Shown piece by piece: positions 2,871 through 8,875 of a stretch of 64,000 nucleotides of DNA. The notes under the pieces are model-generated. The model ran no database searches and was not told the origin of the DNA. It saw nothing but the letters and a program-made list of their open reading frames with translations. The stretch is from Sphingomonadaceae bacterium (lineage in GTDB: Bacteria > Pseudomonadota > Alphaproteobacteria > Sphingomonadales > Sphingomonadaceae), in assembly GCA_019239915.1 (NCBI GenBank), contig JAFAZF010000014.1:1-64000 (forward strand), read 5' to 3'. The translations under genes and the position numbers were made by a program. Position 1 is the stretch's first letter. Each line of letters opens with the position of its first letter.

Positions 2871-4172
2871 TCACAGTGGCAGGCCAAGCGCCGCAGCTTC
2901 GTCACTGCGTCGCTTCAGCTCTTGAAAGGCGGATTGACGGTCTGGATAGGCGTCGGGGCTGGTCGCCATCAGGACATCGACGGGGCTGAAGATGCCAAGC
3001 TCTGCCTTAATCTGCGCATTGGCGAGAAGTTCGGCTTCGGACATTTGATCCTGAAGGCCAGCAAAATCGATCCCGAGCGTCGCCTTGTCAGGAATAGTTC
3101 CGGGCTTGTGCGCGTTCACAACCGCCTTCAAGACTTCGAAGAGTCGCGCTTCCATTGTGCGCGCCTGAGCAATGGCGTTCTGCCGCACTTCCTTTAGGTC
3201 AAGGCGGCCGGCGTATTTCGCCGATCCAGATTGCGCGACCTTGGATAGGTCGAACATATCCTCGCCGCATCCGTAGACGGCGGCCGTCTGGCGCATGACG
3301 AAGCTGAGTGCGGAGACGATATCGCCAATCGGGGCGTTCGGCGCAGCAAACCCGAATTGACCGCCGGCAGGCAGCGCAATTGCCCGATCGGGGCCGAACT
3401 GAAGTACCTCGTTGGCGGAGATGCCAGACGCCCACGCCTGACCTGAGGACTGGAACTCTACAGCACGCCAAAGGCTCGCAAGCCCGACGTTCAAGGCGTC
3501 CTGCGCAGCAATAAGATCATCCCCGCCGGGAATGAAGAACTGATTGTCAGGAACGCGTTCGAACCACGGCACGAACGGCAACACCGAATATGGATTGACG
3601 TTGTCGGCGTTGCCTAGGATCGGAAGTTGAGCGCCGCGCGAGTTGAGAACCTGAAAGGTTTCCGTCGTCCAAGCGTGATAGATGTAATCGTCTGCATGAT
3701 CGGCAGGGAACGTGACGATCACTTGCTCGGGCCGCTCCGGGTTCGTGTAAGTGACATCGATGACGTTTGGTGTGAGCACGTTCAGCGTCGGAATGTCGGC
3801 TTGTTCATCCCAGCCAACTTGCAACATTACCGTCTTGCACACTTCGAGGTAGCGCGAGCCTTTTTGCAGAACGGAGTCGGCGTTCATGGCCTGATAGAGT
3901 GCGTCGCCGGTCGCTTGATCCATGCCGATGAAGGTGCGTCGCGGGGACAGTCGATAGGTGCTCGCGCGCTTATCGGCGATTGCACGAACGATATTGATGC
4001 TGAAGATACGGAACTGATCAGGTCGCGAGTAGCGTTGAGCTATGAGGTTGCGAGCATCGATATGACTCTCGTCCCAATAATATCGCAGCCTTTTCGTATA
4101 AACCCCCTTCCTTGCATGTGAGGAATGGGTTATGGAGAGAAGATCGCTCTTCTTGTTTCTGAAAAGGTTCAT
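2871..4172 (-). CDS. Phage portal protein
   Basis: The 433-residue product is a portal protein, the dodecameric ring at the capsid vertex through which DNA is packaged and ejected. Evidence is its length, its place directly after the terminase large subunit, and portal-like features. These include an N-terminal RYYWDESHIDARNLIA region, a central beta-rich wing with LPFVPWFERVPDNQFF, a helix with MRQTAAVYGCGEDMFDL, and a long C-terminal helical segment (KEVRQNAIAQARTMEARLFE). The start at 4172 has no strong ribosome binding site. It is 62 bp downstream of the terminase stop. Confidence 0.85.
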   Translation of the reverse strand: MNLFRNKKSDLLSITHSSHARKGVYTKRLRYYWDESHIDARNLIAQRYSRPDQFRIFSINIVRAIADKRASTYRLSPRRTFIGMDQATGDALYQAMNADSVLQKGSRYLEVCKTVMLQVGWDEQADIPTLNVLTPNVIDVTYTNPERPEQVIVTFPADHADDYIYHAWTTETFQVLNSRGAQLPILGNADNVNPYSVLPFVPWFERVPDNQFFIPGGDDLIAAQDALNVGLASLWRAVEFQSSGQAWASGISANEVLQFGPDRAIALPAGGQFGFAAPNAPIGDIVSALSFVMRQTAAVYGCGEDMFDLSKVAQSGSAKYAGRLDLKEVRQNAIAQARTMEARLFEVLKAVVNAHKPGTIPDKATLGIDFAGLQDQMSEAELLANAQIKAELGIFSPVDVLMATSPDAYPDRQSAFQELKRRSDEAAALGLPL

Positions 4173-4234: not shown

Positions 4235-5926
4235 CTATAGCGGAAGGCTGTGGCTGCCTATATTTCTGAGTTTTGTTGATGCCCACGCCGGAAACGGTAA
4301 CGGTTGCACGGGGCCACGGCCGGTGTAAGCCTCGTAAAGCTTAGAAGCTTCGCGCATAGACCGGCAGCTATCGGCACATAGAGGGACGTGCCCCCCTCCA
4401 TTTAGAACGCAATGCCCCACGTCGGCGCCACGGCCGTTGCAATGGATGCCGCCGATCTCGTAAGGATTGAGGGTTACGTGCCGCATTGAATGCGCGGCCC
4501 ATGCCGTCGCCATCACAAAGTCGTCATGGGCGCCGCGCGGGTGCGTGAACTTAGGAATGCTCGCTTCGCCATCGCTCGCCTTGCCATCGGCATGAACTTC
4601 GAAGACAGCAAGCTCGGCGAGTAGATCGGCGAACTTGGGATGGATATGCAGGCGGCCATCGGCGGCGGCCTGATAGAGGCCCATAAGCGCCTGATACTTG
4701 GTTCGCCGGCTTGGCTGGATCACTTCCACGCCGGAGCTGAACGGCTGCGTGGCGCACCAGTCAGCCACATCTTGGGCGCCGTAGGATTCGAGCGTGGCGC
4801 GCGAGATGCCGTGCTGGCGATGGTAGCCTTCGAACCGGCTCTTGATGCCGCCGAGACGGCCAAGGAACACGCTGTCAGCATCGATGACGAACAGATGCTC
4901 TTCGTCGTCCATGACGATCTTGGCGACGCACGCCGTGACCGTCTTGTCACCATGCCGCGAGCCGCCGAATGCACGATCGAGCCCAGCGCCGACGATGACG
5001 GCTGAACCCGCCGCAAGCGCCTTTACGTCAAGCGGATAGTCGTGCTTACACGCGGCGAGCACGTCGGCGGGGAATAGCGCGTTGGCCGCGTCCTGCCAGC
5101 GATTGAGGTGGTACAGGGCAAATTCGTGCGGCAGCATCTGCCGCGCAAGCGAGCGCAGCTTGTGCTCGCTCAGCCACGCCGGGGCATGGCGGCAGGCGTC
5201 GTCAAGGTCCGCATAGGACAGGTGGCTGAACGCGATCGACCTATCGGGATCGGTCGCATGGGTTGCGGCTTGGTAGAGGTCGTACAGCTTCGATGACTTC
5301 GGCCCGACGCTGCTATCGATCAGCATCAGGCTCCCGGCGGTATCGAGAAGCGAGCCGGCGAGTGCCGCAAAAACTTCATCGCCGCGCGGGGCAGCATGAA
5401 GCTCTGAGATGGCGGCTGCGGAAAGCTTCTTGCCCCAAAGTGCCGAGGGGTTGGCGCTGAAGGCTTGGATGACGCTGCCGGCAGATGGCAGCTCGATCCG
5501 ATCCTGAAGCACGTTGATCGTGCCGGCCTTCACAAGCCGCTTGAGCAGCGGGGTATGATCGAAACACTCGCGGATCGTGCGGAACAGCGTATCGACAATT
5601 TGCTTTTCGCTGTTGGCCACCACGGCGATATTTTCGGTTTGCCGCGTGAGCAGCCGCCAGACGATCAGCATTGCGGACGTTGCCGACTTGCCGTGCCTTC
5701 TCGGCCAGCACCACACCGCGATCGTTACATCGGGGTTGTCGAGAGCCTTGGCGATCTCGGTGCGTTCACGATCGCCGAGCACGTAAGGGCGAAAGCCGCC
5801 TTCATGCGATCGAACAACCGGCTGCACCTCTTTCAAGAACCGGAAGAAACCGGCCGAACCATCGCGCCACGCCGAAATTGACGCCGCGAGAGGGGACGAT
5901 GAGGACGAGGCAGACGAAGTTGGCAA
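4235..5926 (-). CDS. Terminase large subunit (packaging ATPase-nuclease)
   Basis: The 563-residue product is a terminase large subunit, which cuts concatemeric phage DNA and pumps it into the prohead. The ATPase part has a Walker A-like WPRRHGKS (residues 75-81), a probable Walker B (AAAISELH) and a coupling motif region LMLIDSS. The RNase H-like nuclease part has acidic residues in GAGLDRAF and HLFVIDAD and the C-terminal HDDFVMATAWA typical of the family. The only possible start before Walker A is non-ATG; TTG at 5926 is used here, with no clear ribosome binding site. No small-subunit gene is visible upstream. Confidence 0.87.
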   Translation of the reverse strand: MPTSSASSSSSPLAASISAWRDGSAGFFRFLKEVQPVVRSHEGGFRPYVLGDRERTEIAKALDNPDVTIAVWCWPRRHGKSATSAMLIVWRLLTRQTENIAVVANSEKQIVDTLFRTIRECFDHTPLLKRLVKAGTINVLQDRIELPSAGSVIQAFSANPSALWGKKLSAAAISELHAAPRGDEVFAALAGSLLDTAGSLMLIDSSVGPKSSKLYDLYQAATHATDPDRSIAFSHLSYADLDDACRHAPAWLSEHKLRSLARQMLPHEFALYHLNRWQDAANALFPADVLAACKHDYPLDVKALAAGSAVIVGAGLDRAFGGSRHGDKTVTACVAKIVMDDEEHLFVIDADSVFLGRLGGIKSRFEGYHRQHGISRATLESYGAQDVADWCATQPFSSGVEVIQPSRRTKYQALMGLYQAAADGRLHIHPKFADLLAELAVFEVHADGKASDGEASIPKFTHPRGAHDDFVMATAWAAHSMRHVTLNPYEIGGIHCNGRGADVGHCVLNGGGHVPLCADSCRSMREASKLYEAYTGRGPVQPLPFPAWASTKLRNIGSHSLPL

Positions 5927-6147
5927 GACACACCGGAGGCAAATGTCCCAGCCTATTGGGGACGGATGGCCTCCCGGTAGCCTCCGGGGAAGGTCGCCAT
6001 CTTTGGGCCGTGGCGCGGGCTTCGCGAGTTAGGTCCGCCGACCGTCCCGATGGGCTGGGTACTCGCCGCCTGAGTTTTCTCCCCCTTCAGGCTTGGGAGG
6101 GTCCACCGCCGTCAGCAGGCAGTGTTACTGTGCCAATAGACTAACAC
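5927..6147 (-). ncRNA. Candidate structured RNA or packaging-site region upstream of the terminase gene
   Basis: The roughly 220 bp just upstream of the terminase start hold no convincing gene but a run of perfect stems, given here on the plus strand. GTCCC 5945-5949 pairs with 5959-5963. GATGGC 5965-5970 pairs with 5996-6001. GCGAGT 6024-6029 pairs with 6061-6066 and encloses GGTC/GACC at 6032-6043. GCCTGA 6068-6073 pairs with 6087-6092. A GTGTTA/TAACAC dyad at 6122-6147 closes the region. It could be a leader RNA of the terminase message, a phage non-coding RNA, or a DNA site such as cos/pac. Function is not shown by sequence alone. Confidence 0.4.
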
Positions 6148-6182
6148 AGCGGCGGCAGGATGCAAGCGATTTCTGAACACCG

Positions 6183-6430
6183 CGAACGAAACCACGCCGA
6201 ACGAAACCACGCTCACCGCGACCAGCGCTTCGCTTGAACTCCGTGGAGGTTATCTCTTCGAACTCCGTGGATGTTCAGCTTTCCCATCTTCCTCTAACCT
6301 ACCAAAATCTCCGGGAGGGGAAGCGACGCGAAAGCGTCGCTCTATTCTCTCGAACGAAGTGAGAGAGAATTACGAATCTTGAATCTGATTCTGAATCTGA
6401 ATCTTAGTATTATATATTATATTTCTTTGA
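6183..6430. repeat. Iteron-like direct repeats, hairpins and AT-rich stretch in prophage non-coding DNA
   Basis: No gene is supported here. A 15-bp unit CGAACGAAACCACGC occurs twice in tandem (6183-6197, 6198-6212). A 12-bp unit GAACTCCGTGGA occurs at 6236-6247 and 6260-6271, a period of 24 bp. A perfect 8-bp stem with a GAAA tetraloop lies at 6322-6341, followed by an ATTCTCTC/GAGAGAAT stem (6344-6370). A GAATCT/GATTCT series runs from 6374 to 6404 and ends in an AT-rich stretch (6404-6430). Repeats beside an AT-rich stretch resemble a replication origin or a multi-site regulatory region. Confidence 0.7.
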
Positions 6431-6432
6431 AT

Positions 6433-6684
6433 GCGCGTGCGTGCGCTCGCGTGCGCATTATGCGCGCTACGCGCGCGCTAGGGGGATCTCACTTTGCGCG
6501 AACCGCTCGCGGCGATCCCAATTTCAGCCTGCTGTGACCCCCTAGCGCGCACGCGTGCGTATACGTGCGCTAGGGTCTTCTCACTTTCCTCGAACGATTT
6601 GCGGGGTCCGGCAAACCGCAACTTCAGGGAGTCGTGACCCCCTAGCGCGCGTGTACGCGTGTACGTGCGTGCGTAGCGCGCGAG
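6433..6684. repeat. Two CTAGGG-bounded repeat units between alternating purine-pyrimidine tracts
   Basis: Unit 1 (6478-6545) begins CTAGGGGG and ends CCCCCTAG. Unit 2 (6570-6645) begins CTAGGGT and ends CCCCCTAG. Both share TCTCACTTT-C-CGAAC, a GCGG-G core, AA-TTCAG and GTGACCCCCTAG, so they are diverged copies. Three tracts of alternating G/C/A/T purine-pyrimidine steps (about 6433-6477, 6546-6569, 6646-6684) flank and separate them; such DNA can adopt a left-handed form. The spacing between starts (92 bp) and between ends (100 bp) is not a multiple of three, which argues against a protein repeat. Confidence 0.75.
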
Positions 6685-6861: not shown

Positions 6862-8652
6862 TCAGGCGAACAGATGCGAAAAATCAACACCCTTGAATGT
6901 CACCGCATCCATCCACCGCTTGAACATTGTGACGGTGCCTTGCGTTAGCTCACCATATCCGGCCGTCGTGCTTCGTTGATTGTGCCCAAGGCAAACCTCA
7001 ATCTGATCGTCGAGCAGCTCCGCCTCCGTGCGCAGCCGATCGGCGAGGGTATGCCGGAATGAGTGCGCGCCGAAGCCGTCACGGCCATCCTTGATCCGGA
7101 TTGCAGAGAGATAATCCCGCCACCATCGCGACGGAGTTGCGCCGATCTGCCCACGCGAGTTTGCCTTCAGCTCTGGGAACAAAGAGGCTGACGGATCGCC
7201 GTTGGCACGCCGCTCTTGGCGTTCATGAAATGCCAGGAAGCCGATCTGCTCAAGCACACGGTGAACAGCCGCAGGGCGGCTCTTTCCGCTCTTGGTCGTA
7301 AGCCCCGCCTCTTCGTCATGAGCGATGTGGATAAACCACACGCCGCACGCTGAGCAGACGCCATCCTCGGCGTGCGCATCGCATTGCCGATCCTTATCCC
7401 GGTGCAGGCGAACGTCTCCAATCCGAAGCTGCGCAATTTCGCCGATGCGTGCGCCCGTGAAAAGGCAAACCAGCGGCAACCATCTCCGCCAGTCATCGGC
7501 GTGATGGTTTCCCGGCTCATGCTCGCGGCCGTGATCAAGAAACCCGGTGAAAAGGGGCGATTGGATAATCGTATTGAGCTGAGCTGTCTTGAAGGGCGGC
7601 CGGGGATTTGTGCCCTTCACCTTGTCGTGGAAAAGGCCATTGCAGGGATTTACAAGTCCCGCCCATCTAGGCTGCTGCGCCAGCCACTTATACAGCGGCG
7701 AGATCGTGCTCAGATGCTTGTTGATCGACGTGAAGGCGGTAAAGGGAAGGTCCAATTCGCGAGCCTTTGCAGCCGCCGCTCGCATGGAAAGGCCCGACAG
7801 CGACTTGTTGAACTGCCACTTGGGCGGAAGCTGCCGCAGAACTTCTCTGTAGTTCGCAACCTCTATCGCAGTGATTGAGCGTATCGCCCGATCCTTGCCA
7901 ACGAACTCAGCGAATTGCGTGATTACCTTTCGGTCCTGATCAACCGTGTCCTTGCGCTTGGCGCCCTTGGCCAGCCTATCCGCAGCCCAAAGCTCGAAAA
8001 GCTCTTGGATCGTCTCGCCATGCTTGGCCTTCGCCGCCTTGGCGTCCAGCCCCGCCACCACAACCTTGCTCGTTGGCTGAACGGCGAGGTTGCCGCTGTC
8101 GCGCTCTATCGCGATCCGCACAGCCTCGATTGCCGCTTCAGCAATCATCCCAACGAACTTCGCGTGCCGCTCCGATCCCTTGTCGAGCACCCAATTATTT
8201 CGATCGATGCGGCTGGCGGCGATGCGCTCCCAATGAGCCATGGCGCCGGTATCACGGCGCCGAACAAGGTCTAGCAGTTGTGCCCGGCGCCCTTCGACAA
8301 ACGCGATGTAGGCAGCCGTGTCGGCGAACTCGCGGCTGCGGCGGCGCGTATCCAACTCGCCTAACACCGCCTCATATGCGGCGGTCGCAGCGTCCTGATA
8401 CAGGTCGATATCCGACGGCTCGCGCGGCGCGGTGACAGTCGTTCCAGGGCGCTTGCCGGTCCATTCTTCAAAGAGATCGCCGCGCAGCACGTCGGCACGA
8501 AGCCGGGCTTCCCGGTGATCACGCGTTCCAAGCGATTGTTGGATGATTGCCTTGCCGGCCTTTTGCCGGTGCTCTTTCGGCACGCTCATTCTGAACCAGA
8601 AAGCGCCGGGTCGCTCCCACAGATATCGATCGTCCCGGGGTGCGGTGGCCAT
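6862..8652 (-). CDS. int: Prophage tyrosine integrase
   Basis: A tyrosine recombinase that would insert and excise the prophage at tRNA-Pro. From the ATG at 8652 it has 596 residues. The N-terminus (YLWERPGAFWFRMSVP) matches the DUF6538-type start seen in many alphaproteobacterial phage integrases. The catalytic C-terminal domain shows the first Arg in GARIGE, the HxxR pair in HSFRHT, a downstream His in LGHNQ, and the nucleophilic Tyr in TAGYGE. The frame stays open to 8769, but that extension only reads the tRNA fragment in reverse and is rejected as coding. The gene lies directly beside the attachment site, as expected. Confidence 0.93.
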   Translation of the reverse strand: MATAPRDDRYLWERPGAFWFRMSVPKEHRQKAGKAIIQQSLGTRDHREARLRADVLRGDLFEEWTGKRPGTTVTAPREPSDIDLYQDAATAAYEAVLGELDTRRRSREFADTAAYIAFVEGRRAQLLDLVRRRDTGAMAHWERIAASRIDRNNWVLDKGSERHAKFVGMIAEAAIEAVRIAIERDSGNLAVQPTSKVVVAGLDAKAAKAKHGETIQELFELWAADRLAKGAKRKDTVDQDRKVITQFAEFVGKDRAIRSITAIEVANYREVLRQLPPKWQFNKSLSGLSMRAAAAKARELDLPFTAFTSINKHLSTISPLYKWLAQQPRWAGLVNPCNGLFHDKVKGTNPRPPFKTAQLNTIIQSPLFTGFLDHGREHEPGNHHADDWRRWLPLVCLFTGARIGEIAQLRIGDVRLHRDKDRQCDAHAEDGVCSACGVWFIHIAHDEEAGLTTKSGKSRPAAVHRVLEQIGFLAFHERQERRANGDPSASLFPELKANSRGQIGATPSRWWRDYLSAIRIKDGRDGFGAHSFRHTLADRLRTEAELLDDQIEVCLGHNQRSTTAGYGELTQGTVTMFKRWMDAVTFKGVDFSHLFA

Positions 8653-8679
8653 GCGCTTCGTTAGCGCGCTGGGAGGAAA

Positions 8680-8700
8680 AATATACAATAAAATATACAA
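8680..8700. repeat. Direct repeats abutting the att core, possible integrase arm sites
   Basis: AATATACAA occurs twice, at 8680-8688 and 8692-8700, the second copy ending exactly where the tRNA-Pro fragment begins. Integrases of this class bind short arm-type direct repeats near the core, so these are candidates. Only two copies are seen and their role is inferred from position. Confidence 0.4.
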
Positions 8701-8768
<68 letters not shown>

Positions 8769-8875
8769 CCTAACACGAGGCAAGACGGGGTTTTCGAGGT
8801 CTCTGCGGGAGGCTGTCATACCTAAATTTCGCTCTGTGTGTACGCCCTGTATAGGAGAAGTGACCCGCGTATTAG

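Follow-up and report, generated by a model that had tools for sequence, protein, structure and literature searches.

In the protein-primed phage phi29, the packaging RNA (pRNA) is a molecule of its own that binds to the prohead, and cos and pac packaging sites often lie near the terminase gene. Control of a phage gene by a folded leader is known from phage T4, where the pseudoknot in the gene 32 mRNA leader is described, in excerpts of PMC535899, as an autogenous translational operator bound by gp32; the same excerpts describe operator sequences that diverge between phages while repression is kept. Among satellites, cf-PICIs are defined in excerpts of PMC10690885 as elements that carry their own major head protein, connectors, portal, large terminase (TerL), small terminase (TerS), HNH endonuclease, and head maturation protease and that have no tails.

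Here, we compare with these systems a window of 64,000 nucleotides from a Sphingomonadaceae bacterium (contig JAFAZF010000014.1), the left end of which is an integrating element with all of its parts on the minus strand. The element reads in the order integrase open reading frame (ORF), 936-nt gap, TerL, probable portal gene, major head protein, Proteo-phage-1 RNA, and connector-like genes. The first base of the window is also the first base of the contig; the contig stops inside the element, and the second element end lies outside the window. The tyrosine integrase ORF (positions 6862 to 8769) matches Pfam Phage_integrase and DUF6538 as well as PHROG integrase, and its true start is probably internal. 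An 18-bp att core, TGGTCGGGGAGACAGGAT, occupies positions 8751 to 8768 in a tRNA-Pro remnant, the tRNA type being assigned by comparison with two related genomes (G515 and G152). TerL (4235 to 5926) is identified by Pfam TerL_ATPase (E = 2.9e-9) and PHROG terminase large subunit (5.6e-22). The gene at 2871 to 4172 has no family match in Pfam or PHROG and is called a probable portal gene from its position and from the weak PHROG portal match (E = 3.6e-4) of its homolog in relative L019. The major head protein (1584 to 2489) matches PHROG 212 (1.1e-74), and downstream of its gene lies a Proteo-phage-1 RNA (RF03044; 1434 to 1521) that scores 37.6 bits, below the gathering threshold of 42 (E = 3.8e-4). 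Among relatives, this RNA reaches 44.1 bits in L021 and stays below the gathering score in L026, L034, L031, and L010.

Two further landmarks lie in the gap between integrase and TerL. Positions 6470 to 6660 hold two near-repeats of about 75 nt with inverted ends (CTAGGGGG/CCCCCTAG) among alternating CG-rich tracts, which are possibly origin or recombination sites; CTAGGGGGTTCGACGTTG, from these repeats, is found again upstream of the leader RNA in L010 and L028. Positions 6378 to 6425 form an AT-rich run with GATTCAGAATC-type repeats, and L003, L033, and L037 carry similar runs upstream of the RNA.

An earlier note on this DNA had described a chain of perfect stems between TerL and position 6147. 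The minus strand of 5927 to 6147 does contain eight perfect stems of at least 5 bp with loops of 3 to 30 nt, five of them sequential. They include the nested hairpin that the note had pointed out, GATGGC/GCCATC (6001 to 5965) around CCCGG/CCGGG (5988 to 5973), and its GTGTTA/TAACAC dyad (6147 to 6122), together with GCCTGA/TCAGGC (6092 to 6068) and GTCCC/GGGAC (5963 to 5945). The G+C content is 66%, and a stretch of this composition and length yields about as many stems by chance: dinucleotide shuffles gave 6.2 ± 2.5 stems, with 144 of 500 reaching eight, and 3.5 ± 1.0 sequential stems, with 76 of 500 reaching five. Stem number, which the note had taken to favor a function, was thus rejected as evidence, and the exact chain is unsupported as a functional structure. 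The folding energy of the window leader is equally ordinary (z = -1.31; 22 of 200 shuffles as good). Because the mean z of 22 leaders (-0.85) is near that of same-length pieces inside TerL (-0.69), folding stability alone is uninformative here, and it too was rejected. Two other statements of the note held up. The first was that no convincing gene covers the stretch: a plus-strand ORF (5671 to 6144) has no PHROG match, and one of the six frames (antisense, over the last 215 nt) is open in the window and closed in most relatives. The second was that the terminase lacks both an ATG and a ribosome-binding site: TerL starts with TTG at 5926, with no purine-rich site in the preceding 30 nt. The evidence for a functional RNA comes from relatives; the stems of the window by themselves would not suffice.

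When the window region was used as a nucleotide query against phages, plasmids, and 148 related genomes, only its own copy came back, from the last set, and the TerL protein of the window had no match in a phage collection. We gathered TerL relatives from genomes and viral contigs; searches of the viral contigs returned 10 and 59 loci, and further searches returned mostly the same ones. The DNA upstream of TerL, compared for 22 relatives, is visibly related in most. An alignment of the 3' halves of 12 leaders (A4), from which the diverged L034, L038, and L009 were left out (they are present only in A5), yields a structure of P4-P5-P6, a pseudoknot between the P6 loop (AAGYC) and a downstream GRCU, and P7. 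The following shuffle counts are not probabilities because the aligned members are related: 91.3% of cells are paired, against 86.6% in shuffles (0 of 500 as high) and 25 to 41% in slid controls; nine pairs show double compensatory changes, against 3.1 ± 1.2 (0 of 500 as high); and further pair types do not rise above the shuffled level (205 of 500). All 12 leaders keep the pseudoknot paired, with double changes in L020 (AGUC/GACU) and L037 (AACC/GGUU). Replacing it with a nested extension of P7 gave a poorer fit, with 86.4% rather than 100% of helix cells paired, and was rejected.

The compensatory changes that the earlier note had proposed looking for in diverged homologs are thus present in the relatives, and the pattern does not follow a shared codon phase, the note's other check, as no frame is open across all nine leaders examined. 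All three forward frames contain stops in eight of the nine, L028 having one open frame, and one reverse frame is open in each of L021 and the window. Over 28 pairs of eight loci, mean identity is 81.5% in the 3' module, 77.5% in TerL coding DNA, and 31% in the DNA that precedes the leader; a few of the pairs that include L010 or L033 have a 3' module slightly less alike than TerL.

We built a covariance model of the 3' module (R1) from A4 and used it with a cut-off of E < 0.001. R1 matches 20 of 65 sources, nearly all of which are TerL loci with up to 5 kb of flank, and it matches only before TerL. Eight of the matches were held out of A4 (L019, L068, L025, L027, L029, L032, L038, and L034), with some redundancy, as L019 and L068 score alike and apparently represent one element and L032 duplicates L031; the two diverged ones, L038 and L034, match at 1.1e-4 and 3.4e-4. 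Below the threshold fall L030 (0.19), whose 5' end is cut, and L009 (0.24). The remaining sources, window included, gave nothing convincing, and L003, L035, and L040 reached at most 4.2 bits with filters off. Among 296 genomes of the order, searched with stricter filters, R1 occurs in two: before TerL in G515 and before a TerL that by eye is apparently truncated in G373. In the latter (L085, 8546 onward), the RNA and the TerL start are present and TerL homology then stops early, the gene looking, by eye, interrupted by other DNA. Thirteen viral stretches contain a 19-mer derived from the RNA, 10 of them on contigs with already known TerL-proximal copies; the other three, in L086, L091, and L098, were judged, from the surrounding sequence and R1 scores of at most 14.3 bits, to be chance matches in coding DNA. 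With module ends as we chose them, the start codon follows the 3' module at a distance of 4 to 30 nt in 14 of 15 loci, which leaves little room for a terminator, and at 55 nt in L036.

Rfam 15 contained no match to the window leader (gathering score; E up to 5) or to the leaders of five relatives (E up to 1), and its models, which presumably include one for phage pRNA, listed no pRNA match at the leader in any of these six. In open-license PMC literature, no structured RNA before a terminase gene appears among the matches listed (titles and abstract openings). On the strength of the compensatory changes, a conservation of the 3' module close to that of TerL, and the lack of a shared open frame, we conclude that this apparently undescribed family does have a structured leader RNA. 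What stands of the "structured leader or ncRNA" of the earlier note is therefore a conserved folded RNA in the relatives; the exact stem chain of the window does not stand, and the window copy lies outside R1.

The 5' part of the leader holds a second recurring element. We scanned 18 nonredundant leaders with a descriptor for strict Watson-Crick H-type pseudoknots (stems of 4 + 4 bp). A pseudoknot starting within the first 35 nt is present in 9 of the 18, where 2.2 are expected, the descriptor being negative in the other nine, and one near the 3' end is present in 15 of the 18, where 4.6 are expected; in these counts the members are related, the limits were set after some leaders had been viewed, and some matches are other pairings than those meant. 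The 3' match is the P6/PK2 pairing in 8 of 18 leaders (L020, L023, L068, L033, L031, L034, L037, and L085). It differs from P6/PK2 in L021 and L028, for example, and the 5' match of L028 is in another register. The 5' pseudoknot reads CCCG-cuuga-GGAU-CGGG-uaa-AUCC in L021 and CGAC-u-UGCC-GUCG-auaac-GGCA in L003. Longer stems, found by eye and by a 5/6-bp scan, are present in L010 (CCUCC-uuc-GCAGAU-GGAGG-cuaaa-AUCUGC) and in the window (CUCCC-aa-GCCUGA-agg-GGGAG-aaaac-UCAGGC). A MAFFT alignment of the 5' pseudoknot gave wrong registers and was set aside.

The leaders follow the phylogeny of the terminase. In a FastTree phylogeny, the window TerL falls inside a clade of 23 of 46 sequences (local support, 0.979) throughout which a noncoding leader of 180 to 300 nt directly precedes TerL. 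R1 matches 17 of these 23 at E < 0.001; those without a match are the window, L003, L009, L030, L035, and L040, and the contig holds only 282 nt before TerL in L009 and 95 nt in L030. The clade branch holding the window has a support of 0.784, and inside that branch R1 members, L009, and the window form a group with a support of 0.965. Because both branches of the clade contain R1 members, the RNA is most simply ancestral to the long-leader clade.

The start of TerL is also distinctive. By hand assignment, it is TTG in 20 and GTG in 5 of the 24 long-leader loci plus the window (25 of 25 non-ATG; L031 and L038 allow other starts, again not ATG), and a Shine-Dalgarno-like run is absent from the preceding 30 nt in all of them. 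A -10-like box lies about 197 to 309 nt before TerL in long-leader loci with enough upstream DNA, as picked by hand without a shuffle control. TerL starts with ATG in the nine sister-group loci examined, directly after a -10-like box in five of the nine by script (L041, L045, L048, L049, and L011). The script left L042 and L046 unresolved and placed the ATG of L043 and L047 farther upstream; by eye, all four share the arrangement of the five. This arrangement suggests that sister-group TerL mRNAs are likely leaderless. Before its separate TerL promoter, L011 also has a long G+C-rich noncoding stretch (about 1900 to 2690) with its own -10-like box and, by eye, a terminator-like inverted repeat; the stretch has no R1 match, and its Rfam matches are all below gathering scores and mostly to miRNA models.

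We propose that this stretch is transcribed as the 5' leader of TerL mRNA in a tail-less, capsid-forming, satellite-like element of about 15 kb and that it controls TerL in cis, a reading of the sequence comparisons to which we give a probability of roughly one half. Its fold would combine an H-type pseudoknot at the 5' end with several hairpins and with a second pseudoknot and/or a closing helix. As this fold would end beside a UUG or GUG start codon without a Shine-Dalgarno site, it would gate ribosome entry and hold TerL expression down until the binding or release of a ligand, most likely TerL or some other protein of the head or of packaging, by analogy with T4 gp32. The compensatory changes and the pseudoknot, the occurrence of R1 only before TerL, and the grouping of long-leader loci in one TerL clade argue for this proposal, as do the short distance from the 3' module to the start codon, the TTG or GTG starts set against the ATG starts of the sister group, and the descriptor counts at both leader ends. 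Against it stand the failure of the window copy to match R1, a window structure partly fitted by eye, and the 6 of 23 clade members without an R1 match. The non-AUG start without a Shine-Dalgarno site could mean merely weak translation, and a leader that merely lowers translation need not be so large.

The satellite-like character of the element is taken from two relatives with both ends in hand. In G515, an 18-bp tRNA-Pro-end repeat bounds positions 110,882 to 126,516 (15.6 kb), and in G152 the corresponding att sites are about 15 kb apart. Taken together, they contain an integrase, leader, TerL, portal-like gene, major head protein, connector, HTH gene, and a conserved protein of about 125 amino acids (aa), followed by a cargo of DUF4062, resolvase, N6 methylase, and Mrr-type endonuclease genes. 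A Mu F-like head gene, scanned for in G152 only, matches PHROG head morphogenesis (6.8e-13) and falls below the Pfam cut-off. No tail genes occur among the ORFs scanned in these two att-bounded elements, and we infer from their gene content that they are capsid-forming satellites. Variable cargo is seen at the far element end in L093, L094, L099, and L100 (an RT-like ORF identified by eye, N6 methylase, Mrr-type endonuclease, and resolvase), with DUF4062 among the far-end cargo of L019; these are possible defense islands. The scanned ORFs of the window, L019, L099, and L100 include neither an HNH endonuclease nor a head maturation protease.

The earlier note had also stated that no small terminase gene is found. 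This is unsafe, as the element is cut by the contig end and a conserved candidate of about 125 aa is present in relatives. This protein family (A6) occurs in both RNA-bearing and RNA-free relatives (L019, 16400 to 16777; L060, 4616 to 5005; L062, 4606 to 4980) and lies directly upstream of TerL in L060 and L062. A search of the assembly to which the window belongs, in which the element is cut short, did not find it. AlphaFold predicts a mainly helical protein for A6 (mean pLDDT, 80.6). In a fold search of BFVD, 7 of the top 20 hits are named terminase small subunit, at E values of 0.3 to 1.2, none of them significant; a PDB fold search gave nothing significant, and Pfam and PHROGs gave nothing consistent across members. 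A6 may be the missing TerS, and the idea that these elements lack one is weakened by it.

The TerS question bears on a second explanation, in which the leader is a trans-acting packaging RNA. It would be processed off the TerL transcript and bind the TerL/portal motor or the DNA end, filling the role of a small terminase or of a pRNA like that of phi29. An RNA of this kind would fit a leader that neighbors TerL in every convincing case found and is about as conserved as TerL, in elements with a second structured RNA (Proteo-phage-1) among their head genes and no family-named small terminase among the ORFs scanned. A leaderless TerL mRNA, as suggested for the sister group, would also result from such processing. 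We nevertheless consider it unlikely, as a mainly helical candidate TerS is conserved in RNA-bearing and RNA-free relatives, every copy of the RNA that was found adjoins TerL although a trans-acting RNA could lie elsewhere, and sister elements do without a leader RNA. It is quite unlikely that the processed leader is the satellite's packaging RNA in the full sense, an independent pRNA-like invention within the motor protein's own mRNA that would be able to steer the motor to satellite DNA.

We next consider the window leader itself, which spans about 203 nt from a putative transcription start, its 5' end predicted, to the TerL start (5927 to 6130) and holds the same position as the conserved leader RNA of the relatives. 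A weak candidate promoter, TTGCAT-16-TAGTCT (6138 to 6165), has a -10 box that scores 3/6, overlaps the GTGTTA/TAACAC dyad, and lies at a distance from TerL similar to that of the hand-chosen boxes of the relatives. The 5' H-type pseudoknot (P1 plus PK1; 6068 to 6099), detected by the descriptor scan with stems of 5 and 6 bp, has the layout seen in L010 and L068. It is followed by GGCGAGT (6061 to 6067), the proposed 5' strand of a closing helix, P2, which in the predicted fold pairs with ATTTGCC (5938 to 5944), the proposed 3' strand; by eye, GGCGAGT also follows the pseudoknot in L010, and GGCGAGC follows it in L068. Farther along are the small hairpins GGTC-GGCG-GACC (6032 to 6043) and CGCG-AAGCC-CGCG (6014 to 6026), the nested hairpin already described, and a GTCCC/GGGAC hairpin (5937 to 5963), found by descriptor scan, whose AGGC loop can pair with a downstream GCCT in a possible 3' pseudoknot that would compete with P2. 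The last 12 nt before the start codon, CTCCGGTGTGTC (5927 to 5938), are identical to those of L030 at the same place, a length reached by 0 of 2,000 shuffles; the identity abutting the start codon is 10 nt in L034 and 9 nt in L038 and L085.

With filters off, the best R1 match to the minus strand of the window leader is 1.9 bits, a 13-nt partial match of the hairpin at 6014 to 6026 to the P6 hairpin, and the whole model scores 0.3 bits. Of the features that mark members, the leader has the position before a long-leader-clade TerL, the non-AUG start, and the 5' H-type pseudoknot, and it lacks an R1 match. A pseudoknot like that of the window appears in 5 of 500 shuffles with stems of 5/6 bp, in 29 of 500 with 5/5 bp, and in 295 of 500 with 4/4 bp. 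As the copy lies outside R1, the case for its membership is made by phylogeny, by the identity at the 3' end, and by the similar 5' pseudoknot. One could suppose that the family RNA is real and that the window leader has lost or replaced it, its stems being chance pairings in GC-rich DNA. Such a loss would explain the R1 scores, a stem number and folding energy within the range of shuffles, and a looser 4/4-bp pseudoknot that shuffles commonly contain. It sits poorly with the 12-nt identity at the start codon, with a 5/6-bp pseudoknot that is rare in shuffles and followed by GGCGAGT as in L010, and with a TerL nested in an RNA-bearing clade, and we regard it as distinctly unlikely. The window leader is likely a member of the leader RNA family, and probably a fast-changing member of this undescribed group of folded RNAs. 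Its TerL is about 67 to 79% identical to the TerL of RNA-bearing relatives; if the window leader is a member, such an RNA can diverge past recognition by a covariance model while TerL stays that similar.

A DNA packaging site (cos or pac), with the repeats recognized as DNA by the terminase, would suit a stretch with G+C-rich inverted repeats adjoining the terminase gene but is very improbable, as the loop-to-downstream pseudoknot is kept by double changes and G-U pairs that duplex DNA does not need, and the sequence diverges while pairing is kept.

Cis control by a folded leader remains our preferred reading. The family adds an apparently undescribed pseudoknotted RNA, linked to the DNA-packaging motor, in small elements that apparently build their own heads without tails. 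It gives a concrete setting for three questions: what times packaging in these satellites, whether packaging beyond the phi29 group can involve RNA, and by what means ribosomes start a terminase at UUG or GUG when a ribosome-binding site is missing.

Compared with the systems introduced above, the elements resemble cf-PICIs in having an integrase, TerL, a portal-like gene (by position and, in L019 only, a match at E = 3.6e-4), a major head protein, and connectors in about 15 kb, with no tail genes among the scanned ORFs. They differ in that no HNH gene or head protease was found, TerS is present as a candidate only, and the integration site is a tRNA-Pro in sphingomonads. Proteo-phage-1 RNA (RF03044) is likewise a structured RNA of the same elements, window included, but it sits after the major head gene, and the TerL leader does not match RF03044. 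The leader shares with the phi29 pRNA the character of a structured RNA tied to a packaging ATPase; unlike that RNA, it abuts TerL of an integrating element and is known here from sequence. The T4 gene 32 leader is alike in being the 5' leader of a phage mRNA with a pseudoknot upstream of the start codon, which here holds at the level of the family. In contrast to gene 32, the TerL leader has up to two pseudoknots and several hairpins over 180 to 300 nt, and it precedes a non-AUG start without a Shine-Dalgarno site in a terminase gene.
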